Shown here piece by piece: positions 31,201-59,003 of a DNA stretch of 64,000 nucleotides. Origin of the DNA: Phycomyces blakesleeanus NRRL 1555(-) (lineage: Eukaryota; Mucoromycota; Mucoromycetes; Mucorales; Phycomycetaceae); NCBI RefSeq assembly GCF_001638985.1, contig NW_017265148.1, positions 451,367 to 515,366 on the forward strand. Direction: 5' to 3'. A program made the position numbers and the translations under genes. The notes under the pieces were generated by a model that searched no databases, was not told the origin of the DNA, and saw only the letters and a program-made list of their open reading frames with translations. Position 1 is the stretch's first letter. Each line of letters starts with the position of its first letter.

Positions 31201-34200
31201 TACTAAAGCGATAAAAGACAAAGAGGTATCTAAGTCAGCTGGATCACTGACTCGGGAGCCAGACCAAGAAAAATGTTCTCCTAGTATATCCCAGGCTTTT
31301 TTAGAATTGGGGCCAGTCAATCATAAGGTTGGCGAAGTGCCCGAAGTGCCCGAAGAAATCCAGAACACTACTACGAATGGCGATAGACTTTCACGTAAAT
31401 CCAGACCTACAAGAATGTATGGCAAAGATAATGAGCTCATTCCAAAAGACAATACTATTATACCACCGATTAATAAACCTGGAAATACTTCACATATAGC
31501 ACCGGAAAGAAAATCCCAGAAAAAAAATAGGCCTGCTTTGGACGATAACTATGAAGGTGAAGATGAAGACTATGAAGATGAAGGCAATGAAGATGAAGAC
31601 GATGAAGATGAAGACGATGAAGATGAAGACGATGAAAACCATAAAGGGTCTTTAAAATTAAAATCCAATGATAAAGATACAGCGACAGAATTAAAACTCG
31701 GGTTTACACAAAGGTCACGGGAAATAAAAGCTGCGAAGGGAACGACGAATCTTTATATGCTTCAGAGAAAGGCTGTAATTCTGGCTCTTCTGGAAAGTTA
31801 TCCAATCATGGAACGTAATTTTCACTTTAAGAGGCTCTTTGAAGATAAGACAAAGGAAATGTTTGGGGAAAGTCTACTTCCCACATCTATAGTTTGTATT
31901 AAAACTATCTGGAGAGCAGTAGAAGAGCTTGCACGAGAAAACGTAGTATGTACTCGCGAAGTCACGTTATCAAACATCAGTGGGAAAAAAGCGAAGAGGG
32001 ATATTCTGTTTCGTCGAGATATAGAAGCTGACGGAGAAATTATGAATGATTACTTAAAGTATGTGGGCAAAGGAGAAGCTATTTGGAAAAGCATTCGTAC
32101 TCCAGTACAATTCGAGAAGATTGAACAACCTGAGCGCCTTTTGGATCGTATGGCTCGTATGGAGGCCGAGCACAACTTGGCTGTAGAAGAAAAGAATATA
32201 ACTGAAGCAGTGAAGATCCAGGGCAAACTGAAAAAATTCAGAAAGAATGTCAATTTGGCTAGAGCATACCCAGAAAAGCTGACGAATCCAGCATCTAGTC
32301 GGAAATGCGGACCTAGCAAACTTCTTATTGGCCTTAAATATGGGTTCATTTCTTCGAAATTTATACGAGCCAAAAGGTTGCATCAATATTTAAACAATTT
32401 ACTAAGCAGAAACGTATCAGACGTCGACCCTGAGACTCGTCAGATTCCTATTGTTAGGATTATACAAAATTTGACATTTGGAGAGTACCTTAAAATAATT
32501 GGTATCTTCTTTGAGTCAACTGAAATCCAAGAATTTGCCAATGGATTGCCTAGCAATTACGAAATCATCCTTTCCCAGCTTCCGATTAATATCCAAGATA
32601 TCTTGTTTAGCAGAAAAACTAGGCTATTACGTCGTCTACGCATAGTCCTAGATGTACTTGAAGGCTTCGAGATTATCGAACGTGGTATTCGTGGCACAAC
32701 CTCACTCGATAATTATTTTTCGAACTGGACTGTTGATACTACAAAAGTCTGCACCCTCAATTCAGAAGTGCCAATGCGTGACGTCTTGCACCCAGACCAA
32801 GTAATTATCCGTACATACTCCATTTGCACACCTGCAGATATTCAAATTTTCTGGAGTGACCTTCAATACAGATGCACCAATCAACCCGTTAAATTGGCAG
32901 ATATCCGTAAGCTTCAATTATCTAATTCTCGGCGCTCCTTCGTCAGTGGCATGTTCTTTTTAAAGAATTGGAAGACTACATACCAGATGTCTGCCGAACA
33001 AAAGAAAATCCTCGAAAGTTATGTTGACAGGGTGAACAAAACCACCCCTTTGAAAGAAAATGATATTTGCAATAAGGCTGCGGAAGAAAGTGAAATGAAC
33101 ATCACTATGGTTAGAGCCTATTACCGCAAAGTTGAGGTCTCCTTTCTCACTCGCCAAGAGAAAATATCTGTCCGAATGATAGAACGACATGTTCATGGCA
33201 GAAAAAGATTCAGAAAACCTAGAATCCAGCAGAATATCCCAATGGGACAAAATTCCCTAAAAGAATTTTCTGGTATTTTCAAACTATCCAGATCTGCAGA
33301 CCATTTGAATGACGAAACAATATATCCAAATTGGTATCATAAGATTAGTCTCAATAATATGCTTGGTATCAATAAAGACGCAGATGAACGGCAAGATAAA
33401 AACGGCTCCTTGGATTTCTTCACAGATGGTAAAATTGTTCAGAAAAAACACTCGTACTTCAATATATTAAATAAAATAACTATTTTTATAGTGCAATATA
33501 AACTACTTGATGACAAGACAGGTCGAAAAAGATATAGTTGGAGCGATCAAGAAGATGATTTGCTTATCTACGGTTATGCCATCGTGGCGGAGCGTCTCAA
33601 AGGACATCGTTTTATGTGGGGTGCACTTAGCCGGGTTTTCTCTGATCGCACAACTTCTAGTCTTCGCAATCGCTTAAAGAGATTGCATGAAACAGCCTCG
33701 GCTGGTTCACAGATCAAAATTCTGCGCCACCTGTGGGGAGATATATATAAAAAGGGGTGCAATAGCGGTGCTATTGTTGAGGATGAAAAAAGCATTCATG
33801 ATAACATACATTTTAACCTTTTGGGTCAAGTTCATTACTTCCTCGAGCAACTACAGGAAGCTCCAAGGTAAATATAAAAGTGAATATGTATATACTACTA
33901 AGGATATATTACTAACCTCCTGTATACTTGTTTGTTGTTCTTTGTGTTAGTACTTTTGCGTTTACTAGCGAGCTTATATTAAGCACAAGTACGGAATTCA
34001 AAAAGAATATTGTAAAACCTCAAGAAAAGAAACTCTATGAAGATATATACCATGCTCAGATTACACGCCTAGCTAAAAAGGCAGTTCTTTGTTACAATAC
34101 ACCTCGTTTAAGATTTTCACCAAAGGGAGGCTTTAATACAGGATCCTGCTCTGTATACTCTGAGATGAATCGAGATAAAAGAAGTGTTTCTTTTTTAAAG

Positions 34201-37406: not shown

Positions 37407-39999
37407 CTACACATTAATTCCCCAGTCTCCTACAGTTTGCATTGCTTCTTTGTCTCCTGCTGCTATCCGCGCTCCATCTTCTCCATCTAGTACATCAGCC
37501 ACGCATTCCCATGGATCGCGTGCTCCTCCCCATTTAAGAAGATTATCTCTAAATGCCAATCCTTTCTCACGATCCAATGGATTCTTCTCAAAGCATCTTT
37601 CCCATATTCTACGCGCAAGCGTACGGTCAAACAGGTAAGAGTAGTATCCTGCGCCATATCCAAATAAATGGCCAAACTGAACAGGCCACATAGTCCCGGG
37701 AACACTAGGGAAAAGCCCATTGGTATTTTGCAATTCATGCCAGATATTGACACTGGAGAAACGAGAATCCATTGAAGCTTCAGAATGGTACCGTTGATCC
37801 AACATAGCCATTAAAATCTGGCTATTTACTTCGATTCCACTAAAATTGCGTCTTTGCTTCAAATGTGCATTCACAGCTTCACGAGAGACTGGATTTTCTA
37901 TTCCTTTGGTAAAGAGAGGTAATACGCTTGGATGCCAAACGAAATGCTCCATTAGAATAGAAGGAAGCTCGACAAAATCTGTAGCACATCTTGTACCAGC
38001 AACGTTATGGAAATCTGTACGACCCAGCATTGAGTGCATTGCATGTCCCATTTCGTGAAATAAGGTTTCGACTTCGTACATAGACAGCAATGCAGGGCTG
38101 CCTAGTTGGGTTCGTGAGTTTGTAAAATCACATGTCAAAGCCACCACGGGCATTTGAAATTGACCATCGCGACCAGGTATAGTGCTCGAGGGCTGATATA
38201 CGGGTGGCATAATTTTGGTTAAGGAGATGTCTTGATGAGGAAAGGCATGTCGAACATCGTTTTCTTGATCGTCATCATCAACACGTCTAGAAGTACGGAC
38301 AGTATAATGAGCTGCATTGGTTGTCTTCCCAGGTCGTGAAAACAAATCACAGTAAATTGTACCAATGCTACCTTCACGCTCACACACCACATTGAGTTTT
38401 CTGACATCGTCATGCCATGACTCTCCTGGTTGTAAGCGAGCAGGTTCGAATTGGACTCCGTACATATGATTAAAAAGACGGGATATACCCTGCATTACAG
38501 ATCCAACGGAGAAATAAGGTGTAAAAGATGTATGTTGAGCTATGTTGCGTTGAGTTGCATTTGCCATATGCATATAATAATCACGATCCCATGCATTCAA
38601 TTGGGGTGGATAATCAAGTCTTTGATATCGTTGCTTAATTTTTTGTAAAGTCTTGATATCCTTTTGAGCATCAGGAGTTTGGTGTTGGATCAAAGTTTGT
38701 AGAAATGCTTCGACGTTCTCTAAGTTTAAAATTTTTCTGTTATCAGTAAGCTATTTCAGAAGAGGACTCCAAGTAAAGTAACGTGCAATTTAGTAAAAGA
38801 TTATGCTAAAAACTCACGGGGATTCTTGGCCATCTTGTCCTGAAGCTGTAATTCGGCAAATGAACTTCTTCCTACAAGACCAGCTAGTTCTGCACGGGTT
38901 CTCATCAATTGTTCCAATATCGTGATACTTTCTCGATTGGCTGAATTTATAGATTCGTATACCTGCTGACGAACCTCTGAGCTTGTGCAGTACTTGAGTA
39001 CCATCTGGCACTCGGCAGAATCGGTTTGGATATACGCATAACCATCTTTTCTTAAAAGTGGCTGGATTGTTGAATGACTCATACCTGTCAAAGCAGACTT
39101 TGGGATCTTAATATGAGAAATTGCCCGTGGGTTACGTTGGATGAATTCACGGCCAAGATGAATGATTTTGTCAGAAAGATCAACAAACTGAGTACGTTGC
39201 TTTTTAGGTAAATGAATACCCGATTTTTCGAAATCTCTTAAAAACACTTCAGCTGCAGCATGCTCATCTCGAGAGAAGTTCTTTACAATATTCTTGTCAG
39301 CCAATACCTGAGAAAGGACCTAACACCACGCAAACACGCACAGACACACACATATACCGTATTATTTCTTGATCTTTTATATATTAACGTATATTTATTT
39401 TTGGTTAATGTTAAACTGCTTTTATTTACCTGGTGAATTCGTGTGTCTGTATTGAGAGTATTCATATAAGAACAGAGGTCAGAGTAAGCTTTGTTGGCAG
39501 CTTCCATAAGTACTGGGTTAGGATGAGCATTTCGAATAAACTCGGCCATATCAATCACATTACAGAGTGTGTCTGAGAGTCTATCTAGATTCTTGACCAC
39601 CCTTTGCATTTCTTCGAGGCCATTTTCAGGCGCATGCCATATACGCTCTACGATTATCTGGGCCCGTTGAATAGCCTGCTGTGCAGCATAATCAAAGCCA
39701 GGGGCATCGACAAAGTTTGGGTTTTCAAATAGACCGGCTGATCCTCCGATATTCTTGGATTTGTATAGTGTTTTTCCTTTACTCGTATTTTTTCCAAGAG
39801 AAATTAACTGGTGTTGTTTCCAAACAGACCTGTCATCGAATATTAATCGGAGGTAATCATTGGTGGCCTCGCTCAAAACATTAAGATCTTTTGTTGGAAT
39901 GGACTGCGAAGTAGTAAGAAATCGTTGACCCACTCGAGATTTTAACACGAGCCCAGATCTAGTATTAATTCGTAGTGCCGAAAGGATCTGTAATGACAT
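37407..39999 (-). CDS. OCT1: mitochondrial intermediate peptidase (M3 family)
   Basis: Three exons, 790 aa: 39999-39430, 39307-38818, 38719-37407; phase closes. This metallopeptidase removes an N-terminal octapeptide from imported mitochondrial precursors in the matrix. The first about 30 residues are basic, hydroxylated and free of acids (ALRINTRSGLVLKSRVGQRFLTTSQ), a typical presequence. The M3 catalytic site is HEMGHAMH, with FVELPSILMEH supplying the third zinc ligand. The following GRTDFHNVAGTRCATDF stretch is typical of the family, as is the conserved FGYGAGYYSYLFDR near the C-terminus. Length is close to yeast Oct1 (772 aa). The exon 2-3 join (NP|QNVEAFL) uses donor GTGAGT. Confidence 0.95.
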
Positions 40000-42316: not shown

Positions 42317-44858
42317 ATGACTTGTAAGTAAAGGAAGAATGTACATCATCAATTGATTATTTTAGGACATAAACGAAATTTCAACAGAAAATAAACTCGA
42401 AAGCAAGCTTTTTAAATAGAGTTATAGAAAATTCTCTTAAATGACCCAAAGAAAATACTTGAATAAATTATCTGCTCATTTTCTTATTTATACCTTTTTG
42501 TCTGCACGATTTAGCCATTAGTCTGAGCTTTCTTGCTCAAGCCGACCAAAGTCGATATGAATCCTTATTCAACCAAGCGTCTGGAAATTTGACTTATTTA
42601 TCTGGTGAGACATCTTTAATCTTACTGTTCTTATTTAATAATTACAAAAAAACTCCCAACTAATGATTTGATAATATAAAATCTTCTGTTTAAAAGCAGT
42701 GGATGCTAGAAACGTACTCTCTCGGTCAAATTTAGGCGACGATGTATTAGCAAAGATTTGGTAAAATATTTACCTGAATATCTATATACTATTATAGGAA
42801 TATACTCTGCTTGAATCATCAATAAGACAACAACTCTTCAATAGTGTTATACCTAAACATATATTACTGCTTTAATATTTACAGGGATCTTTCCAATGTC
42901 ACACAATCTCCTCGACTTACATTCCCAGAATTTGCTCTAGCTATGTATCTAACGTCTATAAAAATGACTGGAAGGGAAATCCCAAATGCACTTCCTGACA
43001 ATATTCGAGGAGAGATCGAAACAGCCGTTGCCATGATCCAATCTACCGATCCACGCAACCAGGCATCATCAATTGTCCCTACAGTACAGCAATCTTTACC
43101 TACAGGTTTAAACTCTGGAATCGGACCACAGCGCTCTTTATCCACATCCATGCTCAACTATATGCCAACAGGACAACCTTCACTCCAAGCACAAATTACA
43201 GGATTCCAGTCAATGCAACCGACAGGAATACAAGGATACAATCTTGATTTCACTAATGGAATGATGCCCCAGGCTACAGGAGCATATCCAATGCAAAAAC
43301 GATCTTTTGCAAGTCTGCCTGGAAAAGTCAAAATTCCTTGGGCAGTCAGTAAAGAAGAAAAAGAGAGATATACCAAGATATTCAAAGCATGGGACAAAGA
43401 AAGAAAAGGATATTTGACAGGCGAGGTTGCAAAAGAGATCTTTACACAATCCGGTCTTCCCCAGAACGTATTGATGCAAATCTGGTAATTATGGAATAAT
43501 ATCAACTGATAATACATTTTTAAGTAAACTTTTGGAATTACCATTCTTTCTAAACTCCAATTCTTAGGAATCTATCTGATCTAAACAACCAAGGAAAACT
43601 CAATGTAGATGAATTTTCGGTTGGAATGCACCTTATATATCGAAAGATAAATGGTTATGATGTTCCTATAAGCCTTCCTGCAGAATTAATTCCACCTTCT
43701 ACACGAGAATTGAACGACAGTGTTAGCGAACTGAAGAAATCAATTCTCCAAGGCATCGCACAAAAAAAAGGAATATCAAACTTTAGTTCTTCCCCCTCCC
43801 TTCTCTCCCCTCACACTCAACCATCGCGTACACGATCTGTTAGTCCGGCGCGCAACAAAGAACGCTCACAGGAACCAGACGAAGTGGGGTATGTTTCAAG
43901 TGCACGGCGTATGGGCCCTGATAGAGGTCGATGGGGACAAGCGAGAGACAAATCGCCTGGTCCAGCTGCGACACGTTCAGTGACATCTAGCTATGAGTAC
44001 CGTGGAAAAACAACACGAATGATGGATTTGCGCAAAAACATTGCTGAAGAAAAGAAGAGAATTGAAAATTTTGAGCATGATGCTATCCATGTCAAGCCAA
44101 AGTCATTAAGCAAGCTATCTTATCTTGACCGCAAAGATATTGACGATCTTAAAGAAAGGATCCGAGAACTTCAGACTGAGATAATGAAATCTGAAGGTGA
44201 TAGTGCTGGCCATATATGGGACTCTTATATTGAGAAAACGGCCGAATTGAGCCATGTAGCAGATCAAGAAAAGGCTTTGGAGCAGGAGATATATTATTTG
44301 CTCGAAGATACTCTTAGGGGACTTGTACGACAAGTCAAAGAAACTGAAGAGGACTTGAAAAATAAAAAGGTCCAGCTAGTTAAAATGAATGCCGAGAAGA
44401 CTTCTAAATCCGGGTCACCTTCCCTTGAGATCATAGGCACAGGCCCAGGTGGTGCTGTCACAGAAAGTGATCGTATTCGGGCTAAAGCCAAGGCAATGGT
44501 GGCAGCTCGTATGGGAAAGATTACGGGCAAGATTAGTACTGTCGATATCAGAGCAGAAACCAAGAAGATTGAAGATGAATGTGAAGAGTTTAAAGAGTAT
44601 GCTGAGTCCGTATCTGATGGTCTCAAAGAAATCGAAAATTCTGTACGGTCGATTCATATGGAAATTAGTATGATTGGATTGGATAGTGGCAAACAGGCTC
44701 AAGACCAGAAGAAGATTGAAGAAAGAAACCGATTTGAGCACGGAGTTCGAGTAGCCGACGATCTAAAAGCATTTATACAGCAGCTTTCGTTCGAAACTGC
44801 AACTGCGAAAGCACCAGAAGTAGATCCTTCGTTTGAACGTCGGTTTCCAGAGTTCTAA
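42317..44858 (+). CDS. PAN1: Pan1-like EH-domain endocytic protein
   Basis: Best model is five exons, 682 aa: 42317-42323, 42515-42604, 42700-42760, 42885-43484, 43568-44858; phase closes. Pan1 works with End3 and Sla1 at cortical actin patches and activates Arp2/3 during endocytosis. EH domain 1 spans residues 10-100 (ADQSRYESLFNQASG; RLTFPEFALAMYL). EH domain 2 is near 220-320 (KIFKAWDKERKGYLTGEVAK; WNLSDLNNQGKLNVDEFSVGM). The Pan1-typical NGYDVPISLPAELIPPSTREL and GYVSSARRMGPDR follow, then a long coiled coil. The 7-nt first exon (M-T-S) is the only in-phase ATG I found, and the real start may lie elsewhere. The protein stops after the coiled coil, far shorter than yeast Pan1 (about 1480 aa), and lacks the Pro-rich/WH2 tail. 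Confidence 0.85.
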
Positions 44859-45328: not shown

Positions 45329-45361
45329 GGGTGCACCTTTTTTATAATCGACAATTTTTAT

Positions 45362-45860
45362 ATGTAAAATTAGAAAACCATAAGGCTTTATGGGATCTTA
45401 ATTTTTTTGAATTTTGTTACCGCTGAGTCGTTTGCTTTACTATTTACAAGATCTCTGCGGTGAGACTTCTTTTACTTCTCTGCAAAAAAAAAAAACTTTA
45501 AGCAAGATGAAGTTTCGATATTTAAGCAGGGAGGCTCAAAAAATGTCCTCATTTTCCGGCCAATAATAATGCTCCCTGTGTTTTAATTTGATATTTGTGT
45601 AACGTATAGTGTATCTTTTTATAGTGTGTATTTTTTATTAATAAAACTAGAAAGCCAAAAGGCTTTCTGGGATCTTAATATTTTTGAGTTCTGTTTGCTT
45701 TAATATGCTCTTAATGCTATTTAGAAACTCTCTGCGGTGAGACATCTACTACTTTTCTGCAAAAATATTTTTTTAAACAAGGTAACATCTCAGTGTTTAA
45801 GCAGTGCGGCCAAAATGATGGCTTCATTTTTCAACCAATAATATAACCAACTGAGTTCTT
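45362..45860. repeat. diverged tandem duplication in the DDE element 5' region
   Basis: Two related copies start near 45366 and 45649. Shared landmarks are AGGCTTT..GGGATCTTAA, TCTCTGCGGTGAGAC, CTTCTCTGCAAAAA/CTTTTCTGCAAAAA and TTTAAGCAG. The period is about 283 bp. The second copy carries a perfect AGAAAGCC/GGCTTTCT hairpin. The unit is non-coding and lies between the left TIR and the transposase start. Confidence 0.8.
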
Positions 45861-48063
45861 TATCAACTTACATAATGTAAAACGTTACTAAATAAGACAA
45901 TTTATTTTAAAAAAAAACAATTTGTTCCTGATAAAAACACAATCGACAATGCCAAAAATCAATTCTAAAATGAGAGCTTTATCTCAAAAAGCTGCTGCTA
46001 AAAGACTTTCTCACTCTCAGAGCGAAAGTGTAGAGTTAGTTAGAAAGGAAGTTGATCCTACCCCCGAGATTTCGGAATCTTCTGGCAGTGATGTCAAAAA
46101 TCTCGGACTTTCTTGGACCAAAAAAGCTGAAGATGCTCTCAATGGAAAATACAGTCGCAATCGTTCATCATACTCATCTCGACATGTTCGTAGACTGAAA
46201 AAGGCAGAAAGAGAAGCAGCAAAAGGAAGTGCTAGAGTTGACTCCTTTTTTTTGCCTATCGCAAACTCTTCTTCTGCTGAGACAGAAATTGGATTGGATG
46301 AAGAAAGTGATAGTGCAGATGAAGTCGAGTCAAAGGAAGAGTTCAAAAGCAGAGTAAAAGACGCAATCATTGACTTGTCAAAGTTCGCAGTACCTGTCAT
46401 CAGTTCGACTTCAGAGCAGCAAAAACTTGGTGTAGCAGAGATGGGAAATTACGAAGGAGCATATCATTACTTATATGCTTTGATCAATACGGACATGAAG
46501 AAAATGGCAGCTTCTAAGTTTGCAAGCGACATTGTATACAAGCAAAAATCTACTTGGTACAGAGCCCGTAAGATTCGCCAACATGCAAAGGAGTATTTGG
46601 AGACTAGACGAATCAGTCTTGGTGCACAAGGCAAGCATGCCAAACGTGTCTCTGTTCTTGATGATGAAGACATCAGGCAGCAAATACTCGAATGGTTCAG
46701 AAGTCAGCCAAGAGCTAAAAGAAGTATTGCTGGACTTTCAGTCCACTTGAAAGAAGTCATTCTGCCTAAGGCCATTGGTAGCAGCTTACTATCAGATGAG
46801 TTAGAGATCGAAGGTAGTGCAATTAAGCCGTTGTCTACAGATTGCCTAAGACGAAAGCTGATATCTTGGGGATTTCATTTTAAGCATTTAGGTAGGCAAA
46901 TATAGAAACCAGAATGCGGTTTTCTCTATAAAAATAGAATGTCACATTAATATAACTTATGTTTATTTTACAGGAAAAGTTGTATACTTTGATGGGCATG
47001 AGCGCGAGGATGTGCTTACTTATAGAAATGCATGGAGCAAACGCATGATGGAATACTATCAATACTCTGAGAAATATGACAATGTTACACCTTCTCTTGT
47101 GTCATATCCTCAATTGCCAGAAGGTGTCAAACAGCATGTATTTGTCACACATGACGAAAGTACATTCTATGCTAATGACTATCAAAAATACGCCTGGGTG
47201 GAAGATGGTGAAAGCTATTGTTTGCCAAAGTCTGAGGGTAGATCAATAATGATCTCCGAGTTCCAATGCCCTTGTCATGGAACAATGAGAGGATATGTAG
47301 GAGACCAGTACAAAACTTCGCGAGTGGTATTTTATCCTGGAGCTCAATACGAAAGCTATTGGAAAAGTAGTCATATGTGTGCCCAGCTTACAGATATAAT
47401 ACCTCTTTTCAATGCCATACACCCAAATGCAGTAGCTGTCTTTCTTTTTGATCAAAGCAGCAATCATAAAGCCTATCCTGAAGACGCTCTTTTGGCACAA
47501 AACATGAACTTGTGTGCAATTGAAGTAAAAGACAGTGACTCAGGCCAGGGAAAATTTCGTGACAGCTCATTTTATGTCAGAAAGCAATACGACTATGCAG
47601 AACAGCAAAAAGTTTTTTTTTCAAAAAAAGAGTAATGAAGAAAAACTTAAAGAATATGAAGTAATCGAGTCTCGGCTCCATAAAGTAAGTGATTTATATA
47701 CAATCCTATCCGAATAGAAACATAATTTATACAATTACAATAAGGGATCACTTTATGCTAAAAGACGTGTCTATAAACTATTCATACTTAGAATAAAAAA
47801 TACAAAAAATATTTCATTGGCCTTCGCGGCATATTACAGCAACGTTCTATGTATAGAAACGAAGCAGAGAGATACTCTTTAAAACGTTCTTGCAATAATG
47901 TCGCGACAGCTGATTCTAGATGTTGTGCAATCCATATTATGGAGAGACAACCAGACTTTGCCAACCAAAAATCAGCACTCGAAGAAATAGTTGAAGGCAG
48001 TGGACACAAATTTGAACTGTATCCAAAATACCACTGTGAATGTAATTGAATCGAAAGATACTG

Positions 48064-51000
48064 AGTGGGTATTTTTGGTGGGCCATAGTCTGACTGAGTT
48101 TTATTCTCGCTATTTTTGGTGTGATGAGATTGAGCGTAGAGATACCCTTTTTCGAAAAATTAGGTTCATTTCCCGAAAAAAAATCCAAATTTGTTAATAA
48201 AAAGAGGACGATTTCGACGTTTTTATCATAATGGATGTCTTTATTTTAACATGAATATGTGTCGACTAAAAGTTATATAATTCAAGGCTGGCTACTACTA
48301 CTACTAGAATGGACCTTTCTTGACAGCTTTCCTACCTTATAATGCTCTAATATATATGATTATTGATTGGAATTACTTATATTTGTAATGATTTATTACT
48401 CATACAGTTTTCTGGAAAGCCATAAAATAAAGACATATATTTTGATATAACAGTGAAAGTAGTACATATTTATTGAATATAATAAGAAGTATTTATGTAG
48501 AAAAATAATTAAATGAAGATAGTTTTATATCTTTTACGATAATCGAGCTCTATATTTATCTAGAGAAATTCCAAGCTGAACTCGGTCATTCTCCATTCTT
48601 TGAGCAGCTTCTTCAGGGGATATATTCTCTAACTCTGCTCTTTCATTAATTGCATCGTACAGCTCTTTTCTTCTACTAAAAAATCTAGACTCTTTACGAT
48701 ATTTTCTCCATGCAGTTCCGTACTTATTTTCTAAGGATTGAATGGATGGGCTGCCATTAAAGCTGAAAACATATTCTCTCCATACATCAGTAACATAGAA
48801 AATTCTTTGGCTCATTGTATACTGTTCCGGCTGTTCTGGGTGTGTTGGCTGTTGAGATGTTACGGCACTATGTAATGGAGTACTTTGGGGTGGTGGTTGT
48901 AGAGGTTGTGATGTAATGATGTTACGCTGTAAAGGTAGGTTCGATGGTGTTGCAATTGTAGAGTTACTGAATTGATTGTATCCGAGAGCAAAAAAATCGG
49001 TAAAATTGTTGTTTAATCTATTAATGGAGGCAGCGTGTGAAGAGAGGTGGGCATATATCATGGACTGCATCGAATTCATGGTGGCGTGAACTGTTCCGAA
49101 ACCAGCTCTGACACTATCTACCATCTCTGGCATAACCATATCCATCCTGTTATTGCTCATGAACACCTCTTCTTCTTGCTGTACTGCGGAGAGAACTTGC
49201 TGTTCGAAGCTTTTGTATTCCTCTGAGCTGAAGATAGCACATGTCCAAAGATAATAACCTGGGAATTTCTTTTTCAGAAGAACAGAGTCCTAAAAAAAAA
49301 AGCAGCAAAGAAATATTACTTAGAGAAAATATTACAAACAGTGCTTTAATAACAACATGTACCTGTAGAAATACCACTCGAAGTCGCGAAAGTAAATCCA
49401 AAAAAATTGGGCCAGCTATGTCCTCTTGGACATCTCCATTTGCAAATTTCTGTTTCCAAGATTCGATATTTGGGAAAACTATTGTTTGTAGAGAAGCCGA
49501 AGGTTGAACCACTGCTCGTGCTAAAAAGAAGTTGCTACTGTTTCCAGAGAACCCTGCTAAAGCCTTCATTGCTTCCACAGGCAATGTTGACATATAACAT
49601 CCCACCATACGGTCTGTTCCCCACCTTCCAACCATTCGTTGTTGGTCGCCGGAAACGTTCTCTTGTGCAATCATATTGAGAGAACTTTTGCGGTTGGCAT
49701 GGGTGACCTTTGAAGTATGGATCCCAACTGATTTGAATGCCTTAAGGTATATTTTATGCTGCGTCTTGTATCGTATCGGCTTGAAGCGGTCGTCACCTTT
49801 AAAAAGAGCTGTTTCATACCATTTTTCACGGGAAGAAAAGTCGGGAAATGGCTCATTCTCATAATAAAATCTTGAGAATAAACTCATGGCCAATGCACCA
49901 ACGGAACAGACTTCAAATTGACGATGACGGATTGACGATCCATACTCAATCTTTCCGTGTTGATTGGTTTTTCCAAAGGTCATGGTTGCCACCAGAGCAA
50001 TGCATTGTGTGGCGCCTTGGTTGTCTAATTCCAAAGAGAAAAGGTCGGCAAATTGTATTCCAAGAACTGTTTGACTTCGGCATAGCATTGCATGACTTAT
50101 AAGAAAGCAAAGTCGATCTCGACATGCGCGGGTATCGTTTTTTTCCATGAAATATTGACTGATTCTTTCTAATTCTTGCTTGGTGTATCCATCGTTAAGT
50201 GTATTCTTTTCACGATCTTCGAAGTTTTTTCTAACAGTCTGTGCGCGTGCCTTATTTGCGGTATCAAGGAAAGCACGGACAAGTGGTCCTCTTGCTACAC
50301 CATTGGGATTCAATCCAAGAGCTTTCTGCTTGCTACATATATCGGCTACTGCCTTGACATAGGCCGCTATTGATTCTTTGCCTAATGGAATCGGGGAGTT
50401 GTTATCATCCCTCTTTAATTTACGTCCTCTATTCATGACATGATCCATCATGAAAAAGCTTAGTTTCTGATCATTCACAAGTTCACCATCTCCGAATTCT
50501 TTCTTGAGACACCATTGCTGTTTGAAATGTATAAAAACACTTTTAATATTTTTTTATACAGAAAACTATATTATACATACTCTCCATTCTTCTTGCTTTG
50601 CAAGATATGCTTTCGTCGTATTTGTAGGGCGCTGGTCCAGGTTTTGAGCTAATACCAATTGGTTGCTACTGTACATTGCTGATGTGTTGTCCATCATACG
50701 CTGAAGACTTGGATCATTGACGGTAGTGTTGTTTCCGTTGTTCATTTGAGGCTGAATAAATAGAAATAAAATAATGTATAATATATCAACAACATTATTC
50801 ATAAAGTCTTTGAAAATTTGAAGTAATAACGTATTAATTATGGCAAGATATACTTACAGCTCTTTATGAGAATGTTTGGTTTGTTATAAAGGTAGTTTCT
50901 TTTTCTATTAATTGTAGTACTCTTTATATCCTTTTTTTTTAATGAAAACTATCAGAGTACATCGTACTAAAAATACATTATGAAGAGAACTAATCACATT

Positions 51001-51430
51001 CAAGTATAATAGTGTATTGGAAGTATAGAAGACATTGTCAGGAACCAATGTCTTTGTTTGTTAAAGGTAAACCAATCCTAGACTTCAAATGCCTTGCAAA
51101 TAAAGATATCTTTTTATTATTAGATGAACCACTAAGGATTTATACTTCTCTTCCTAATATATTGTAGTGTAACATGTAAAATAAATATAAAAATAAATAT
51201 TGACTATAATAAGTAACCAAAAGCCAAAAGTCGTTGTTCATTGGATGTATCTGAGCTTGCGTTTCATATGAGTCCGATATGCGATATATCATGGTATTCG
51301 TCATGGTATTTTTATAAAAATTATATGGAAACAGAAAAATACTTTTCTTTTTTCAAAAAAGTACTGCCAATTTTTAAAAACCCGCCGAAAAATACCTGAG
51401 TTTTGTGTGAGTCTCAAGAATCAGATACTG
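48064..51430 (-). mobile_element. Crypton (tyrosine-recombinase transposon)
   Basis: A 3367-bp insertion whose two junctions share the 8-bp direct repeat AGATACTG (48056-48063 and 51423-51430), with no target duplication beyond it. Taking out one repeat plus the intervening DNA restores the host reading IERY|WEAAKK. That is the pattern expected from site-specific recombination between a circular element and a matching core. It carries a single tyrosine recombinase gene on the - strand. A weak inverted similarity (GGTATTTTT-GG near 48069 and its complement near 51393) lies just inside both ends. Confidence 0.85.
48534..50745 (-). CDS. Crypton tyrosine recombinase with GCR1_C-type DNA-binding domain
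   Basis: Three exons, 691 aa: 50745-50581, 50517-49363, 49289-48534; GT-AG and in phase. It catalyses cut-and-rejoin recombination through a Tyr nucleophile. The core-binding part starts KAYLAKQEEWRQWCLKK. The catalytic part has the first Arg in AMLCRSQTVLG, a Lys region near MTFGKTNQ, His-x-x-Arg in KVTHANRKSS, and GRWGTDRMVGCYMSTLP with the nucleophilic Tyr. The last 90 residues (RIFYVTDVWREYVFSFNGSP, KYGTAWRKYRKESRFFSRRKELYD) match the fungal GCR1_C domain found in Cryptons. All exons are open and catalytic residues are present, so it may be functional. A 5' untranslated exon ending at the donor near 50858 is possible. Confidence 0.9.
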
Positions 51431-51456
51431 GGAAGCAGCCAAGAAAGAAGCACGAC

Positions 51457-53135
51457 CACTACGGGAAAAAAAGTGGGAATTCCGCTGGGGATTCAGCTGG
51501 AGATTCAGCTTGGGATTGAGCTGGCGATTCTCGCGAATCGCAGTGGAATCTCTAGTTCCCTTTTAAGTAATATATTTTAATCGCCGTTGACTTATTGATG
51601 TTAGGTTTTATTCATATCCCGCTATATTTATCCATCTGCTATAACCTTATTTTCATTGGTAGGAAAAAAAATATAAAAAGATTTCTATTGGTAAGAATGA
51701 AAAAAGAAGTTCTTAAATTGGTAATAAAATATTATTTTGGTTTTTATAATTATTTTAATTGGATAAAATACATTCTATTATTGTATATGCTTCAATGGTA
51801 TTGGTCATTTCAACAGAAACATTCTCTCAAATGGCCCTCATTTATATATATTCTGATTTGTTCACAATTTTAATTGGGTAAAAAAGTTTCATTTCATAGA
51901 GGATTTTTATTTAAAAATACTTTTATTAATTGTTATAAAAAGGATAATTCTTTATTCATTAATTGTATTGGCTAAATATCATTTGAATAATTCCATGTTT
52001 TCATATTAAGTATACAATTTATTATACCTACCTGACATGAACTTACGAGTTCTTTCCTTCACGCGGTTTTTCTATGACTGAAAGACTTTTGCAACAAATA
52101 TCCGGTTTTTGTGACATGTGGTAAAGCCGACGCAACTTTGTTTAAGTAGACACACATGTTTGGCGCACATTATGCCCTTGTTTTCTTGAGATAGACATCG
52201 TATTTGGATTTATTTCTAAAGATTGTACAGAAAGATAGACGGCCATTTCATTACATATAAGACGTGAACGTGTTAATAGTTGTTTTGTTTTTCTTGTTGA
52301 GTTAAACCAAGAACATGACTCATCATTTTAAAGTCGTGTTTCAAAGTTATAGTTTTAATACAAGCATTAATCTCGAGATTAGGACATCAAAGAACTATAT
52401 TGCTTTACATTAGCTTATATGTTTTTCTTTGCTTTATTATTTCTTACATCATAGTCTGGGGTGGGCTTCTCAAGTGTGTATTCATTTATGTCATTAGGTA
52501 GTTCAGAAATCTCCAGTCGTAGAATGCCTGTTACTTTTAGAGTGCTTTTTGGCCCTTCTGCAAAATAATAAGCATTTCTTGTATATCCCGAAGTGTTTCT
52601 CGCATACCTTGAAGCAGATAAATTACTGAATCTTCTTAATTATTCATGATAATAATAAAAATCCGGCGTCAGGGTTTGTTATGAACAAAAGAAAGAACAA
52701 GAAAGAAAAATTTTCTAAGTCGTCATTAGCGTCATATATTTTGTACAAATGTATTGGTTACTCTTTGATATGAAATATCAATATAGTAATTTTACAATGA
52801 TGACATACACTTCCCTATTCTAATTTTTTAGCGTGTCTTTGAATTGTCCACATATTTTATTCAAGTAATAAAAGTTTGATATTTTCTTTCTCTTTACTTC
52901 TGACTTGTAATAGCCATCAATTGCAATAAACACTTACTAAAAATGTAAAGTCTGTAGTTAAAATGCACTTTTGTCTATTAGGAGATTTAATTTTCGGTGG
53001 TCAATTTGCTTTTTATCAACTTCTTCAAAAAACAGAGACTTTCTTATTTCATTTTGAATTTTTGGTGAATTTTTAATTATTATAGACCAAAAAGAAAGTC
53101 ACTAATTCGAAAATCCCGAGTTTTTTCCCGTAGTG
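51457..53135. mobile_element. non-autonomous CACTA (EnSpm-like) element
   Basis: 1679 bp with terminal inverted repeats CACTACGGGAAAAAA and its exact complement, becoming imperfect beyond 15 bp. A 3-bp GAC duplication flanks it (51454-51456 and 53136-53138). Just inside the left end are degenerate subterminal repeats of the type GGGATTCAGCTGGAGATTCAGC, in units of about 13 bp. The interior is AT-rich and encodes no transposase. TIR sequence, 3-bp duplication and subterminal repeats are the CACTA hallmarks. Confidence 0.88.
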
Positions 53136-53167
53136 GACGTGTATCATGGCTTCCTCCGCTATATAAC

Positions 53168-54417
53168 CGGACCCCCCCACAGGGGAACACCTCATAAACG
53201 GCCATACAAACAATTCACCCACTATCACAACACCCACACCCGGACTCCCTCTCACCTACTTGACTGCCCTAACAAACACCGCACCGACATTCCGCCATGC
53301 AATCGTACTTGGGTCTAATGACCCCCTGACAAAACCTCGCACTTGGCGAGAAAGTACTAGCCAGTTCTCCGTTTACTACACTACTCCCCCGGAAACCTCT
53401 CCCGAATTCATTGTTTTCTTTGACGCTCTGCTCCAGTCCTTTTTGCCTGGCGAAATCTTTGGCCTGAACCCTTCCAATAAAGCTGGTACCCTCTTTGAGC
53501 TCCACTTGAGCTCCAAAGATGTTTGTGCTCGTGCTTGTCGTGTAGGCTTTCGGTACAACAACGAAACTGTTCTTGCCTCCCCTGCCATTGCTAGCTCATC
53601 CAAATTGTTTAAGCTGACTTTGTCAAAGCTCCCCCGATTCCCTCCTCAAGAGTACGCTACCTTGGATACCAAACTTCGTAATGCTCTCACGAAATATGGC
53701 TATGTGCACGATATCTCCATTAACACGTTGTTTGGGTTTATGGATGGAAGTGGACACGCATATGTGGAGCGTCCTCCATATGAGGAAGGTGCCCTCCTTC
53801 CACTTCGCTTTAAAATGGATTTCGATGATAACACGACGTTCTTGGCCACTTGGCTCAATATGGGAGCCCATTGCGCTCTATGTCAAACCATGGGCCATGA
53901 CCGCGACAACTGCCCCACTCGACCAAAAGAAACTCGCTCGTGCTATGGCTGCCATCAGATCGGCCATCTTCGCTCTAAATGCCCTCGTGCTGCCGAAGTG
54001 GACAACTCATACAAACGGGATCGCAAGGTTCCTGAACCGCATGGCCCCCATCGCACCACTGCCACCCGCAACACCACCAACCGACCCACTGTCACTCACT
54101 CTGGCTCACATATGAAGAAGACCCTCCCCCCCTCCTTCACCACAGCCAACCCTTATGCCCTACTTGACCCTTCCCTCTCTTCTGCCGGGTCTCAACACAA
54201 CCCCGCCAACACCACCAAAGCTGTACCCGCCGATTCACGCACCAAGACACCAAAAACACCTCCACTCCCTTTTGAGGCGAACTTAGTTGATAGGGAAACA
54301 CTCCCCGCTGATGATCCCACGCTCACCGATGACGACTTGGCAGAGGTGGAGGCATACTTTGAGAAAAACTGCGAAGACGACCCTATGAAGGGTATTGAAG
54401 AAACTATCCCCCAATAA
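53168..54417 (+). CDS. LINE ORF1, zinc-knuckle nucleic-acid-binding protein
   Basis: The frame is open from just after a TAA at about 53165 to the stop at 54415-54417, but contains no ATG before the conserved body. The first ATG of the element (53147) meets that stop after six codons. So either the 5' end is truncated, a frameshift hit the start, or a non-ATG start (for example TTG at 53260) is used. The middle holds a folded domain (VYYTTPPETSPEFIVFFDALL). It is followed by two CCHC knuckles, CALCQTMGHDRDNC and CYGCHQIGHLRSKC, then a Pro/Thr-rich tail. ORF1 proteins bind LINE RNA to form the retrotransposition particle. Confidence 0.8.
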
Positions 54418-54422
54418 TAATT

Positions 54423-57400
54423 ATGATAAAAATTGCATCTATGAATTGCCGTGGATTAGCCAAAACTAACCACCCACAAACGCGCTCCCTATTTATAAGA
54501 CACCTTCGATCCTGCGGGATCGATTTACTCGCCCTTCAAGAAACTCATGCCAATACTGAACCTCTCCAACAGATGTTCCATACACAATTCCATGCCCAAG
54601 ATTCCTTATGGTCTCCGCACTGCGGTCTTGTTTCTCTTTCTCCGCACCTATCTTTCATTAACCCTCTATTCAGCCCTTGTGGCCGTTGCATCTCTACTAC
54701 AGTCATACATACTAATAATTCCATTCCCTCTTTCCGTATATGCGTTGTTTATGCCCCAGCTTCCTACCGGGACCGCTTTTCTTTCCTCCGCTCTCTTCTC
54801 AACTCTCCAGCACTACTTCCTCGTCTCCCATCCTCATGCATACTTTTGGGCGACTTCAATTATACCTACCGCACTACTTCTTCTAACCCTCGCCAGGCCC
54901 CTCCCGAATGGCTTAACTTTATTTCTAACCATTTCGTGGATTGTGTCACATTGAGTGGTGAAGTCCCTGCCCCAACCTTCCACCGACAACTTTGCTCCTC
55001 CTCCATAGATTATGTATTTGCTTCTTCCGACCTTGCCCCGTGCCGTCAGTCCTCTTCTGTGTCCTATATACATCCGAATTGGTCCGATCATTGTCTAGTA
55101 GCCACTACTTTTAAGTTTACCGCCAACCATGCAACAGGAAAGGGAATGTGGCGCGCCAACCCTCGTCTTGCCCGCAACCCCACTTTTTGCACTGAATTTG
55201 ACGCCTATATTTCTACCTCCGTATTTCTACTTTCTCCCTATATGTCCCCACAAGACCAATGGGATAGATTAAAACATATGCTTACAAAATTCATTAAGTC
55301 CTTTACTAGGCGCCGCACACAAACACTCACTACACTGGAGGCCAGACTTCAAAGTAAACGTGACAAGTTAATCCACAAGTTCAGACAACAACCCGCCCAA
55401 AACTTCCAATTGCCCATTATTGAAAGACAGTTGCAACAAGTCCAGCTGGAGAGAGTGGAAATTCTTGCCCTGCGTGCAGGCAAACATTGGCGAGAGAATG
55501 GAGAGATCTCCGCAGGATACCTCAAGCGAACAGTTGCAGAACGCCAAGCCCGAAAGAACATCACCAAACTACGCCATCCCATCACTGACCACTTACACAC
55601 TGAGCCTGATGGCATGACTGAAGCTGCCGCTTCTTTCTACGAAGGCCTGTATACACCTGAACCAATAGATCAACTAGCCATAGACGATTTACTTCGCCAC
55701 CTTCCCAACGATCTCTGCCTCTCTGATACCGTATGTTCCTCTCTGACTGCTGAACTTTGCATCGAAGACATACGAGAAGGCGTGTCTCGCTCTCCACGAA
55801 CAAGTAGCCCAGGACCGGACGGCCTCCCTTATGAGATCCTCCAACTCATTTTTCATCACCATTCTTGCTCCCAGTTGCTGACACAAGTGTACAATGATGC
55901 TCTTAGTAGTGGCCAATTCCCTTCATCCTGGCAAACAACATGTGTTTCTCTGTTGCCCAAGAAAGGCGATCTCTCATCCCTGAAGAATTGGCGACCGATT
56001 GCTCTGATCAACGCCGATGCCAAGATTTTCACTCGGCTTCTCAACGCTCGAATGGTCAAAGCTGCTGGAGTGCTTGTATCTCCGTATCAAACAGGATTTG
56101 TCCGTGGTCGCTTCATTGCTGATAACGGTATACTTACGAAGCTGGTTATGGATCATGCCAATTCTACTGGTCACTCTGGAATCGGTCTTCTCTTGGATCA
56201 GGAAAAGGCTTACGATCGGGTTCACCCTGACTATCTTCAACAAGTTCTTGTTAAATTCGGTTTTCCTCCTTCAATTATAACCTGCACCACTAATCTTTTC
56301 TTCTCTTCCGACCTTAAGATTAATGTGAACGGTTTTCTCTCTCGTCCTCTTTGTCAAGCACGTGGACTCAGACAGGGTGACCCCATGTCCCCTGTTCTGT
56401 TTAACCTGGCCTTTGAACCACTTTTGCGCCGACTCATACACGACCCTCAGTTTCCTGGATTTGAGATCCAAAGTACGCCTGAACATCCCGCACCTCCACC
56501 CATAAAGCTACTCGCTTATGCCGACGATCTTCTGGTTTTCCTCCCGCAGATCCAGGACATGTCCCGATTGCAGCACCACCTCGCCACCTATGCCTCTGCT
56601 TCCAACGCACGCATCAACCTTCACAAGACCCAAGCTTTCTCCCTGTCAGGCAGACCTCATCCTCACTGGGCGGACACCCTTCACAGCTTGCAGATTGTCG
56701 AGTGGCATGATAGTCGCTCTCCAGAACCTCTCCGCTACCTTGGCTTTCCGATCATCTCCTCCCTCACCCAACGCAACTCCTTCTGCTCACAAATCTTGTC
56801 TAAGATAGAGCGAGCTTCACATATCCACCTCTCCCGCGCCTTGTCCTTCCGTGGCCGTGCTACTGTCCTAAACTCTCTTATATTGTCAAAGCTCTGGCAC
56901 GTTCTTCGTGTTGTATCTGTTCCCGGCACGTTCTTTACCAAAGTTCGCTCTCTCATGGGTCGCTTTCTTCAGCATCGAAGCTTCCCACCGATTAGACTTG
57001 ACACTCTATGTCTCCCCACAAAAATGGGCGGTTTAGGGGTTTTGAATCCAAAACTGCAACAAAATGCCCTTCAGCTCCGTTGGCTTCAACCTCTATTCCA
57101 ATCCACTTCGTCTCCTTCTGGTCTGGTGTTGCCTTGGCTGCTATATCTTCTTCGGCATTATCTACCTGATGTCCATCCCCATCTTCCTTTCATTTTTCCT
57201 GACCTCAGACACCCTCGATTCCGAACTTATACCAGTCCTTTCTTTAACCTTTTTGCTGCCTGCGATCTCTTGCCTCACGATTTTGACTCTACTGTGATAA
57301 ATCTACCGACTTGTCTGGACATTCCTCTCGCCTCTGCAGTTGTGGTTCCACATGGTCTCCCTGCTTTTCTTGCTTCTTGGCGTCACCTCCGGATCCGGGA

Positions 57401-58220
57401 TGCCTACGAGATCAACACCACTTTGGATATCCTTTCTCGCCGCTTACTTTCTTCCTTTCCTCGTTCACCACGCATCCTCCGCAAAGTCCTTCAGCGGGTG
57501 GATGATCACTCTCTTTTCCTTCACGCATTCATCATTCGCGCTTGCCTGCCTCAAAGTATCTTGACCGAACAATTCCCTGACTTGATGGCTCGCACGGGCA
57601 CTGAGGTTGACCCTTCCACACTCCTGTTGGCCCTCTCTCCTACCTCTCCTTGGAAACGCTTGTCTACACGCCAATTCCGTTCCTCCTGTGAAGTCGTCAC
57701 TTCTTCTATCGAGGATGTACCGCACAACATACGAGCCATCAAATGGCGTCAATTCTGGTCTTTCATCCTTCCGTATGCCTCTCGCAACATTTGGTTCCGG
57801 CTGCTTCACCACAAGATCTCATGTCAATCCGTGCTGCATAACCGTATTCCCACCTCATTTCCCTCCCCTAATTGTTCGCTGTGTGGAACGGAAATTGACT
57901 CTCAAGACCATTTTCTCTACGCATGCCCACTCAAGCTTCCTCTCTGGCACACACTCTGGCTCGCGCATTTCGGCTTTTCCCCCCAATCCTCTGACATTCA
58001 CAATGCGCTATACAAGTTTTCCTTCCCTCCCACCCTTGATCCCACTTCACATCCTGCCTCAATCCTTGGCTCTGTTCTTTTAGCCTTGTGGAGACATCAC
58101 TGGGCTTTCATATTCGATCAATCACCTTTCGTTGCCGCTAATGCCACTACCACTGCCAATTCCCTGCTTTCCCGTTTACAATCCGAAGAAAACCTTGATC
58201 AACGCCCTTTTTCTGTCTAA
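54423..58220 (+). CDS. LINE ORF2: AP endonuclease - reverse transcriptase
   Basis: One uninterrupted frame of 1265 aa, starting 5 nt after ORF1 stops. Residues 1-235 are an APE-type endonuclease: IASMNCRGLA, LLALQETHA, LLGDFNYTYR, SSIDYVF and SDHCL hold the catalytic and metal-binding residues. The reverse transcriptase covers about 480-730: LKNWRPIALINADAKIF, TGFVRGRFIADN, LLLDQEKAYDRV, GLRQGDPMSPVLFNLAFEPL and the catalytic LLAYADDLLVF. The C-terminus has the CSLCG-x-DHFLYACP zinc motif typical of L1/Tx1-type and plant-like LINEs. No RNase H domain is seen. The enzyme nicks target DNA and primes cDNA on it. Every key residue is intact, so the copy may be competent. Confidence 0.95.
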   Translation: MIKIASMNCRGLAKTNHPQTRSLFIRHLRSCGIDLLALQETHANTEPLQQMFHTQFHAQDSLWSPHCGLVSLSPHLSFINPLFSPCGRCISTTVIHTNNSIPSFRICVVYAPASYRDRFSFLRSLLNSPALLPRLPSSCILLGDFNYTYRTTSSNPRQAPPEWLNFISNHFVDCVTLSGEVPAPTFHRQLCSSSIDYVFASSDLAPCRQSSSVSYIHPNWSDHCLVATTFKFTANHATGKGMWRANPRLARNPTFCTEFDAYISTSVFLLSPYMSPQDQWDRLKHMLTKFIKSFTRRRTQTLTTLEARLQSKRDKLIHKFRQQPAQNFQLPIIERQLQQVQLERVEILALRAGKHWRENGEISAGYLKRTVAERQARKNITKLRHPITDHLHTEPDGMTEAAASFYEGLYTPEPIDQLAIDDLLRHLPNDLCLSDTVCSSLTAELCIEDIREGVSRSPRTSSPGPDGLPYEILQLIFHHHSCSQLLTQVYNDALSSGQFPSSWQTTCVSLLPKKGDLSSLKNWRPIALINADAKIFTRLLNARMVKAAGVLVSPYQTGFVRGRFIADNGILTKLVMDHANSTGHSGIGLLLDQEKAYDRVHPDYLQQVLVKFGFPPSIITCTTNLFFSSDLKINVNGFLSRPLCQARGLRQGDPMSPVLFNLAFEPLLRRLIHDPQFPGFEIQSTPEHPAPPPIKLLAYADDLLVFLPQIQDMSRLQHHLATYASASNARINLHKTQAFSLSGRPHPHWADTLHSLQIVEWHDSRSPEPLRYLGFPIISSLTQRNSFCSQILSKIERASHIHLSRALSFRGRATVLNSLILSKLWHVLRVVSVPGTFFTKVRSLMGRFLQHRSFPPIRLDTLCLPTKMGGLGVLNPKLQQNALQLRWLQPLFQSTSSPSGLVLPWLLYLLRHYLPDVHPHLPFIFPDLRHPRFRTYTSPFFNLFAACDLLPHDFDSTVINLPTCLDIPLASAVVVPHGLPAFLASWRHLRIRDAYEINTTLDILSRRLLSSFPRSPRILRKVLQRVDDHSLFLHAFIIRACLPQSILTEQFPDLMARTGTEVDPSTLLLALSPTSPWKRLSTRQFRSSCEVVTSSIEDVPHNIRAIKWRQFWSFILPYASRNIWFRLLHHKISCQSVLHNRIPTSFPSPNCSLCGTEIDSQDHFLYACPLKLPLWHTLWLAHFGFSPQSSDIHNALYKFSFPPTLDPTSHPASILGSVLLALWRHHWAFIFDQSPFVAANATTTANSLLSRLQSEENLDQRPFSV

Positions 58221-59003
58221 GTTCATCGCGTTTCTTCGTTTCCACTTTTTTTTTTTTTTTTTTTTACATTACATTTACAACTTAAAACACAAAATCCCCA
58301 AAAACATTTAAATAATAGAAAAACCAAAAACAAGTTGTGGCGCCTCTTAAGCCTTTTGGACAAGAGTCCCACCAATAAACCAGAGCTCCGCTCCATACAA
58401 ACAAAAAACCGTAGTGGACGTGAATGTGATTATTCTTTTCAATCATTGAATAGAAAAATCAATTCATTTCTGGATAGTGTTTGCCCACCAGAAGATGATG
58501 TCCCTGAAAAGATTCGAAGATATTTCCACAAAAGTTTTGCCTACATCAATGCCTACAGTCTTGGTCATGATGCTGAACATGCATTTGAAATCGTGAAACA
58601 ATTCTCAAAGCTTTACAAATCTCATCGTAAGCTGAGATTAAATCAATAAATATCACATTTCTGACTTTAAAAATACTATTTTGGGATCGGTACTTAAATT
58701 CCAAAAAATGTCCTCTTTTCAAAAATTGTCTATTATAAAAAAGGTGCACCCTATGCAATTTATATTTAAAAGGGAAATTTAAAAGCTAAAAACATCATAT
58801 ATACTACAAAACCTTACAAACAAATATTTTAATTTTCTCTTTTCCTATTCAATCAGAGACCTTTAATAAAATCCTGAGCTTTTTCTTCCTGGCTCCATAC
58901 AAAAAAAAAATTAAAAGGGAAAAGCGTACAAACCATGTCTCAACAAAATACGAATGATAATTATAAAGCATAAATATCTTGTACAAAAGGATGTAAATTA
59001 GAC

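Follow-up and report, generated by a model that had tools for sequence, protein, structure and literature searches.

Long interspersed nuclear elements (LINEs) with another transposon as their chosen target form a small class. Tx1L of Xenopus laevis is a known member, with the DNA transposon Tx1D as its target, and the insertion of the LINEs SART1 and TRAS1 does not use up their telomeric target. LINEs that target other transposable elements (TEs) are an accepted class (PMC8869645; PMC4640811); "other TEs" is among the target classes of LINEs given in the first of these, and the Tx1L paper among its references. The telomere-specific SART1 and TRAS1 have their site set by the endonuclease, and swapping the endonuclease changes the site (PMC7265360). 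Fungal CryptonF elements are described as encoding a tyrosine recombinase with a GCR1_C protein and carrying short terminal direct repeats, mostly of 6 bp (PMC3212892). Here we analyse a transposon nest of the fungus Phycomyces blakesleeanus NRRL 1555(-), located in a window of 64,000 nucleotides (contig NW_017265148.1, positions 451,367 to 515,366). Three elements with different mechanisms, a Crypton, a CACTA element and a LINE termed LINE-A, sit inside one copy of a TA-target transposon. We consider it probable that this is a nest of three inserts in which LINE-A belongs to a family that repeatedly targets the 3′ ends of CACTA elements through a nick by its apurinic/apyrimidinic-type (APE-type) endonuclease, and that these tips can be used again.

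LINE-A at the 3′ ends of CACTA elements

The features that bear on the LINE are, in coordinates of the window:

51457..53135, + strand: CACTA element, non-autonomous, both termini complete (CACTACGGGAAAAA / TTTTTCCCGTAGTG)
53128..53141, + strand: left copy of the LINE target-site duplication, CCGTAGTGGACGTG, made of the last 8 bp of CACTA, GAC and 3 bp of host
53142..58408, + strand: LINE-A, with open reading frame (ORF) 1 from 53146 and ORF2 at 54399-58220, the latter with endonuclease, reverse transcriptase and zf-RVT domains
58409..58422, + strand: right copy of the LINE target-site duplication, CCGTAGTGGACGTG

The insertion point of the LINE is the outer tip of the CACTA element, which remains complete. 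The nearest solved structure to LINE-A is L1 ORF2p (E 2.7e-40; R2, E 5.1e-25), and with its endonuclease and reverse transcriptase domains LINE-A would be an APE-type LINE of the L1 group. ORF1 of the window copy has a stop at codon 7 that is absent there in 6 of the 6 other copies read. At least five other near-complete copies at 95–99% are present in the genome (40 of 138 candidates scored), and the named relatives among the 120 of 1,128 matches listed come from Rhizopus, Mucor, Parasitella, Thamnidium, Absidia and Lichtheimia, all Mucorales.

A search with the LINE 3′ end gave 28 matches. The 15 best-preserved and one 3′-truncated piece were taken as the family (n = 16), and both flanks were read where possible. 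A CACTA terminus stands at the 3′ junction firmly in 9 of the 16 and weakly in 2, while 5 lie elsewhere. Six copies (window, C11, C1:2328141, C9, C32 and C8, the last with a CAGTG variant) have the terminus on both sides, within duplications of 14–18 bp, and CACTA 3′ subterminal sequence is found to the left of the LINE in all six. In three copies (C27, L056; C15:1223176, L069; C14:536149, L071) the terminus is seen on the 3′ side only, and the two weak cases are C14:561333, which is diverged, and C6:1519183, where the LINE lacks its last bases. The sequence past the tip differs in all 11 CACTA-associated copies, the weak two included, and these are therefore separate insertions. The CACTA families to the left of the LINEs are 65–77% alike over their shared parts, and one encodes Transposase_21. 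The same base of the CACTA 3′ end has been hit repeatedly by the LINE-A family across diverged CACTA families; recurrent insertion at one sequence position, the mark of a target-specific LINE, is what is found here.

In 53.5 Mb there are 151 exact occurrences of CACTAYGGGAAAAA and 2 of its reversed control, and 3 of the 16 LINE-A copies lie at such exact sites. A pattern for the 5′ junction gave 4 matches, with 0 in the control. These figures bear on another account of the locus, an ordinary random nest in which a LINE reached a CACTA tip by chance in transposon-rich DNA. Transposons often nest, 5 of the 16 copies do lie elsewhere, and two further inserts stand no more than 26 bp apart in the host (chance 0.017), which we treat as coincidence. 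Nevertheless, independent insertions return to a single base position of CACTA ends, with a chance of 4e-14 for the three exact sites, or 2e-9 without the window copy, and a random nest is thereby rendered very improbable. The LINE had been given as one layer of four in the original prediction, which was made from the sequence of the window; the recurrent choice of CACTA tips by its family means that this layer is not a random one.

The choice of target is a strong preference and not a strict one, and several observations weigh against targeting of CACTA ends as the whole account. The left flanks of the three copies with a 3′-side terminus only (C27, C15:1223176 and C14:536149) are unexplained and have no matching duplication. 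Five copies (C28, C4:2699372, C3, C1:3393915 and C18:92924) lie away from CACTA ends, and the older LINE-A subfamily, at 80–82%, has 0 of 3 copies at them. A pattern for the 3′ junction, AACAAAAAN{0,4}CRTAGT, gave 25 matches against 24 in its control and is uninformative; 8 of the 25 lie at LINE-A ends, and the pattern was set aside as too unspecific to serve as evidence. Among 12 more distant LINE 3′ ends, 0 are at CACTA tips. This control is small, since 7 of the 12 share one flank (by eye) and about five are independent; compared with five independent ends, LINE-A gives p 0.012 for 11/16 and p 0.039 for 9/16.

The older copies also place the preference within the family. The younger subfamily has 11 of 13 copies at CACTA (2 of them weak) versus 0 of 3 for the older (p 0.018). 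The preference seems to be limited to the younger subfamily, and the change of target could therefore be mapped.

The LINEs at C28 (L057) and C4:2699372 (L077/L078), which are of one lineage, occupy a common site in a repeated element that is short and has inverted ends. Their compared parts are 75% alike, so the two insertions are independent, and the short element is a possible second preferred target. The shared site is unoccupied at at least nine places, and the C3 copy lies in a repeat unoccupied at at least 32 places (40 of 380 candidates scored). Excision of CACTA after LINE insertion was considered for the three 3′-only copies and found no support, as their left flanks have no left-over duplication of the expected kind (by eye). 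A search with joined flanks, in which 40 of 711 candidates were scored, returned no empty site for these three copies among those scored. For the more distant LINE group, the idea of a second target repeat was rejected: within the same scored set the 3′ flank of this group occurs only at four of its own copies, and is therefore probably part of that element.

A proposed nick inside the CACTA end

In the mechanism we propose, the APE endonuclease of LINE-A would nick CACTAYGG^GAAAAA, 8 bp inward from the 3′ end of CACTA, reverse transcription would be primed at the nicked strand, and the other strand would be cut about 13–18 bp from the first nick. The endonuclease domain in ORF2 is consistent with nicking by the LINE itself. 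Because the duplication includes the last 8 bp of CACTA, the CACTA element retains two complete ends with the LINE just outside. CACTA ends thus stay whole after the insertion, and the tips would serve as landing sites that are scattered through the genome and not consumed by insertion; a CACTA element carrying LINE-A at its tip may remain mobile.

Alternatively, the LINE could exploit breaks made by the CACTA transposase. Such breaks would account for the association with CACTA ends and for the use of the 3′ tip only. CACTA transposases cut at the border of the element, and since the proposed cut lies 8 bp inside that border, breaks of this origin are less likely. The duplications, moreover, are ordinary ones of 13–18 bp, and at least five insertions away from CACTA ends have duplications of the same kind. 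We regard exploitation of transposase breaks as improbable.

It can also be asked whether the endonuclease simply favours G-rich/A-tract sites like GGGAAAAA, which CACTA ends happen to supply. The C3 site, where the nicked strand reads GAAAGAA past the nick and is thus purine-rich as well (by eye), would agree with such a preference. However, GGGAAAAA is found six times in the window on both strands, CACTA copies included, which extrapolates from this one window to thousands genome-wide against 151 exact CACTA ends, and an A-tract rule would place a few percent of the copies at CACTA ends rather than 9 of 16. Because GGGAAAAA is so much commoner than CACTA ends, a simple A-tract preference is unlikely to be the explanation.

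We lean towards a recent specialization of the LINE-A endonuclease on CACTA 3′ termini, with the cut 8 bp inside and the host element intact and able to stay mobile. If so, LINE-A would be a parasite of a parasite that leaves its host element unbroken, and the use of transposon tips without their destruction, with on-target and off-target subfamilies within one genome, would offer a natural experiment on the way in which specificity is acquired by an L1-type endonuclease.

The nest and its other inserts

The remaining features of the nest are:

45329..48063, + strand: left part of the host TA-target transposon, with its terminal inverted repeat (TIR) from 45329 and transposase frames at 45892-47635
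48064..51430, − strand: CryptonF-type element, identified by Pfam domains, with the element-borne core AGATACTG at 51423-51430
49150-50553, − strand: NDC10_II frame (Pfam E 6.8e-46)
48534-49289, − strand: GCR1_C frame (Pfam E 4e-23)
51431..51456, + strand: host island of 26 bp between Crypton and CACTA, contiguous in each of the 10 uninterrupted copies
58420..58751, + strand: right part of the host transposon, closing with the right TIR; TA follows at 58752

The left host part ends in the target's own AGATACTG (48056-48063), the last 3 bp of the island are the GAC of the CACTA duplication, and the first 3 bp of the right part (58420 on) double as the end of the LINE duplication. Joining 45329-48063, 51431-51456 and 58420-58751 gives a predicted empty host of 3,093 bp, which was aligned to 10 other copies fetched from the same genome. 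Eight align across nearly the whole join at 95.6–99.0%; of the remaining two, one aligns from base 304 (94.0%) and one in two pieces (91–92%). In a test stretch of 111 bp, all 10 run through both junctions without a gap. The joined C-terminal host peptide of 89 aa has nine relatives in the protein database, eight of them full-length with 66–80% identity. The landmarks of all four sets of boundaries were found exactly where the original prediction had put them, and its expectations that uninterrupted host copies would match the predicted join, and that removal of the inserts would restore the host transposase, are both confirmed by these alignments. On this sequence evidence the nest is real, its empty site being demonstrated by uninterrupted host copies. 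Each insert has several other copies at 95–99% in the genome, and chance is therefore not a candidate for the nest. The nest as such is ordinary. The prediction of a four-layer nest stands as to the host, the three inserts, the empty site and the priority of CACTA over the LINE, and is revised as to the Crypton core and the place of the LINE.

The host TIRs lie at 45329 and 58751, adjoining TA, and match at 30 of their first 31 bases. Of 8 host copies readable by the search, the window included, 7 are bordered by TA at either end, and one has TG at its right end; the search missed three further copies. TA duplication with TIRs is as in Tc1/mariner-like elements. Neither piece of the host transposase matched a Pfam family, even at E 1. 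In the label of "TA-target DDE transposon", the "DDE" is therefore putative, drawn from the TA duplication and the TIRs together with the appearance of the protein, which we take to be that of a DDE transposase. Two host copies, L012 and L013 (C27 and C3), have 0 private differences at gapless columns, and a very recent move or duplication is therefore indicated. Secondary alignment matches show diverged repeats, about 230 bp long and 71–76% alike, within the 5′ part of the host (window 45329-46042).

For the order of insertion, the right-hand duplication of the LINE includes the last 8 bp of CACTA, and the LINE is therefore younger than CACTA, as had been predicted; in this the nest is a clean case of relative dating. 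Private substitutions per gapless columns number 2/3,360 for the Crypton, 3/1,670 for CACTA, 11/4,637 for the LINE and 8/2,446 for the host, counts that also include changes older than the insertion. The Crypton looks youngest by this measure, at p 0.34 versus CACTA and p 0.087 versus the LINE, neither significant, and the earlier statement that it cannot be ordered still holds.

The Crypton has five other near-complete genome copies at 96–99%. Its recombinase contains HxxR followed by a Tyr, presumably the tyrosine recombinase motif; a tyrosine-recombinase-related domain is combined with GCR1_C, and a core is common to both ends as a short terminal direct repeat. AGATACTG flanks the window copy at 48056-48063 and 51423-51430. 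Junctions were read at 11 other places on each side, with loci at the same place counted once and the truncated left ends L026 and L042 excluded. On the left, AGATACTG is found in 0 of 11, TACTG in 8 (ATACTG in 6), TAATG in 2 and TATTG in 1; on the right, AGATACTG is found in 8 of 11 and variants in 3. The joined flank of one copy matches at least 10 empty places, and the two empty sites fetched read AAATACTG where the right junction of that insertion reads AGATACTG. The right core is therefore the element's and the left core the target's, the empty sites separating the two parts of the repeat, and 8 bp is thus not the general repeat length of the Crypton. The repeat in the window is 8 bp long because the host transposase gene itself already reads AGATACTG at this site, as in 10 of 10 uninterrupted copies; the Crypton integrated at a host-gene sequence resembling its core. 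Of the boundary signatures predicted, TA, GAC and the 14-bp duplication stand; the 8-bp Crypton core is in place too, but it is no simple duplication.

Elsewhere in the genome, two Cryptons in the same orientation (L022 and L023; C46:117789-121149 and 129734-133093) enclose 8.6 kb. One Crypton's left flank and the other's right flank adjoin at at least three places (C12, C7 and C17), confirmed in the two that were fetched, and their outer flanks have no other match among the scored candidates. The arrangement looks as though a Crypton-bearing circle had integrated. Another nest is seen at C2:3191997-3206749 (L025, L029, L040), where a Crypton is split by two inserts of about 6.0 and 5.4 kb, the split points overlapping by 5 and 14 bp in the element.

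The CACTA element, inserted 26 bp away from the Crypton, is flanked by GAC on both sides (right copy 53136-53138) and has at least seven other copies at 97–99% (40 of 219 candidates scored). CACTA termini with a 3-bp duplication are thus present in the window copy, and no frame of at least 150 aa was found inside it. Four other copies were fetched: L064 is flanked by GTT at either end and L061 by TTA with a mutated first base, whereas L062 lacks a 3-bp match and the left end of L063 is damaged. A related 4.8-kb element on C11, with termini at 844853 and 849634, has the same CACTA termini and encodes Transposase_21 (E 6.3e-11). Genome-wide, at least 150 matches to Transposase_21 exceed the cut-off (558 candidates), and the genome is rich in CACTA-type elements.

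Outside the nest, the window has frames that match a GTF3C1 winged-helix domain (30098-33871), peptidase M3 (37407-38750) and an EH domain (43554-44858), which are apparently ordinary neighbouring genes.

Comparison with known systems

The CACTA insert resembles EnSpm/Transposase_21 CACTA elements in its termini, its 3-bp duplication and the Transposase_21 of its 4.8-kb relative, and differs in that the window copy has no long frame. Similarly, the Crypton shares with CryptonF elements the tyrosine recombinase, the GCR1_C domain and the short terminal direct repeats; it differs in the 8 bp at the window site, because the target there matches the element's core further than usual. A literature search limited to open papers gave no report of CACTA ends as a LINE target among the titles and abstract openings listed. 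What appears to be new, judged from sequence, is the CACTA tip as target, the targeting of other transposons by LINEs being already known. SART1 and TRAS1 take telomeric repeats as their target, whereas that of LINE-A is a transposon tip. Like Tx1L, LINE-A is a LINE with an APE-type endonuclease and a different mobile element as its chosen site; unlike Tx1L, it has as its target the terminal 8 or more bp of CACTA elements, which belong to diverged families and are left whole.

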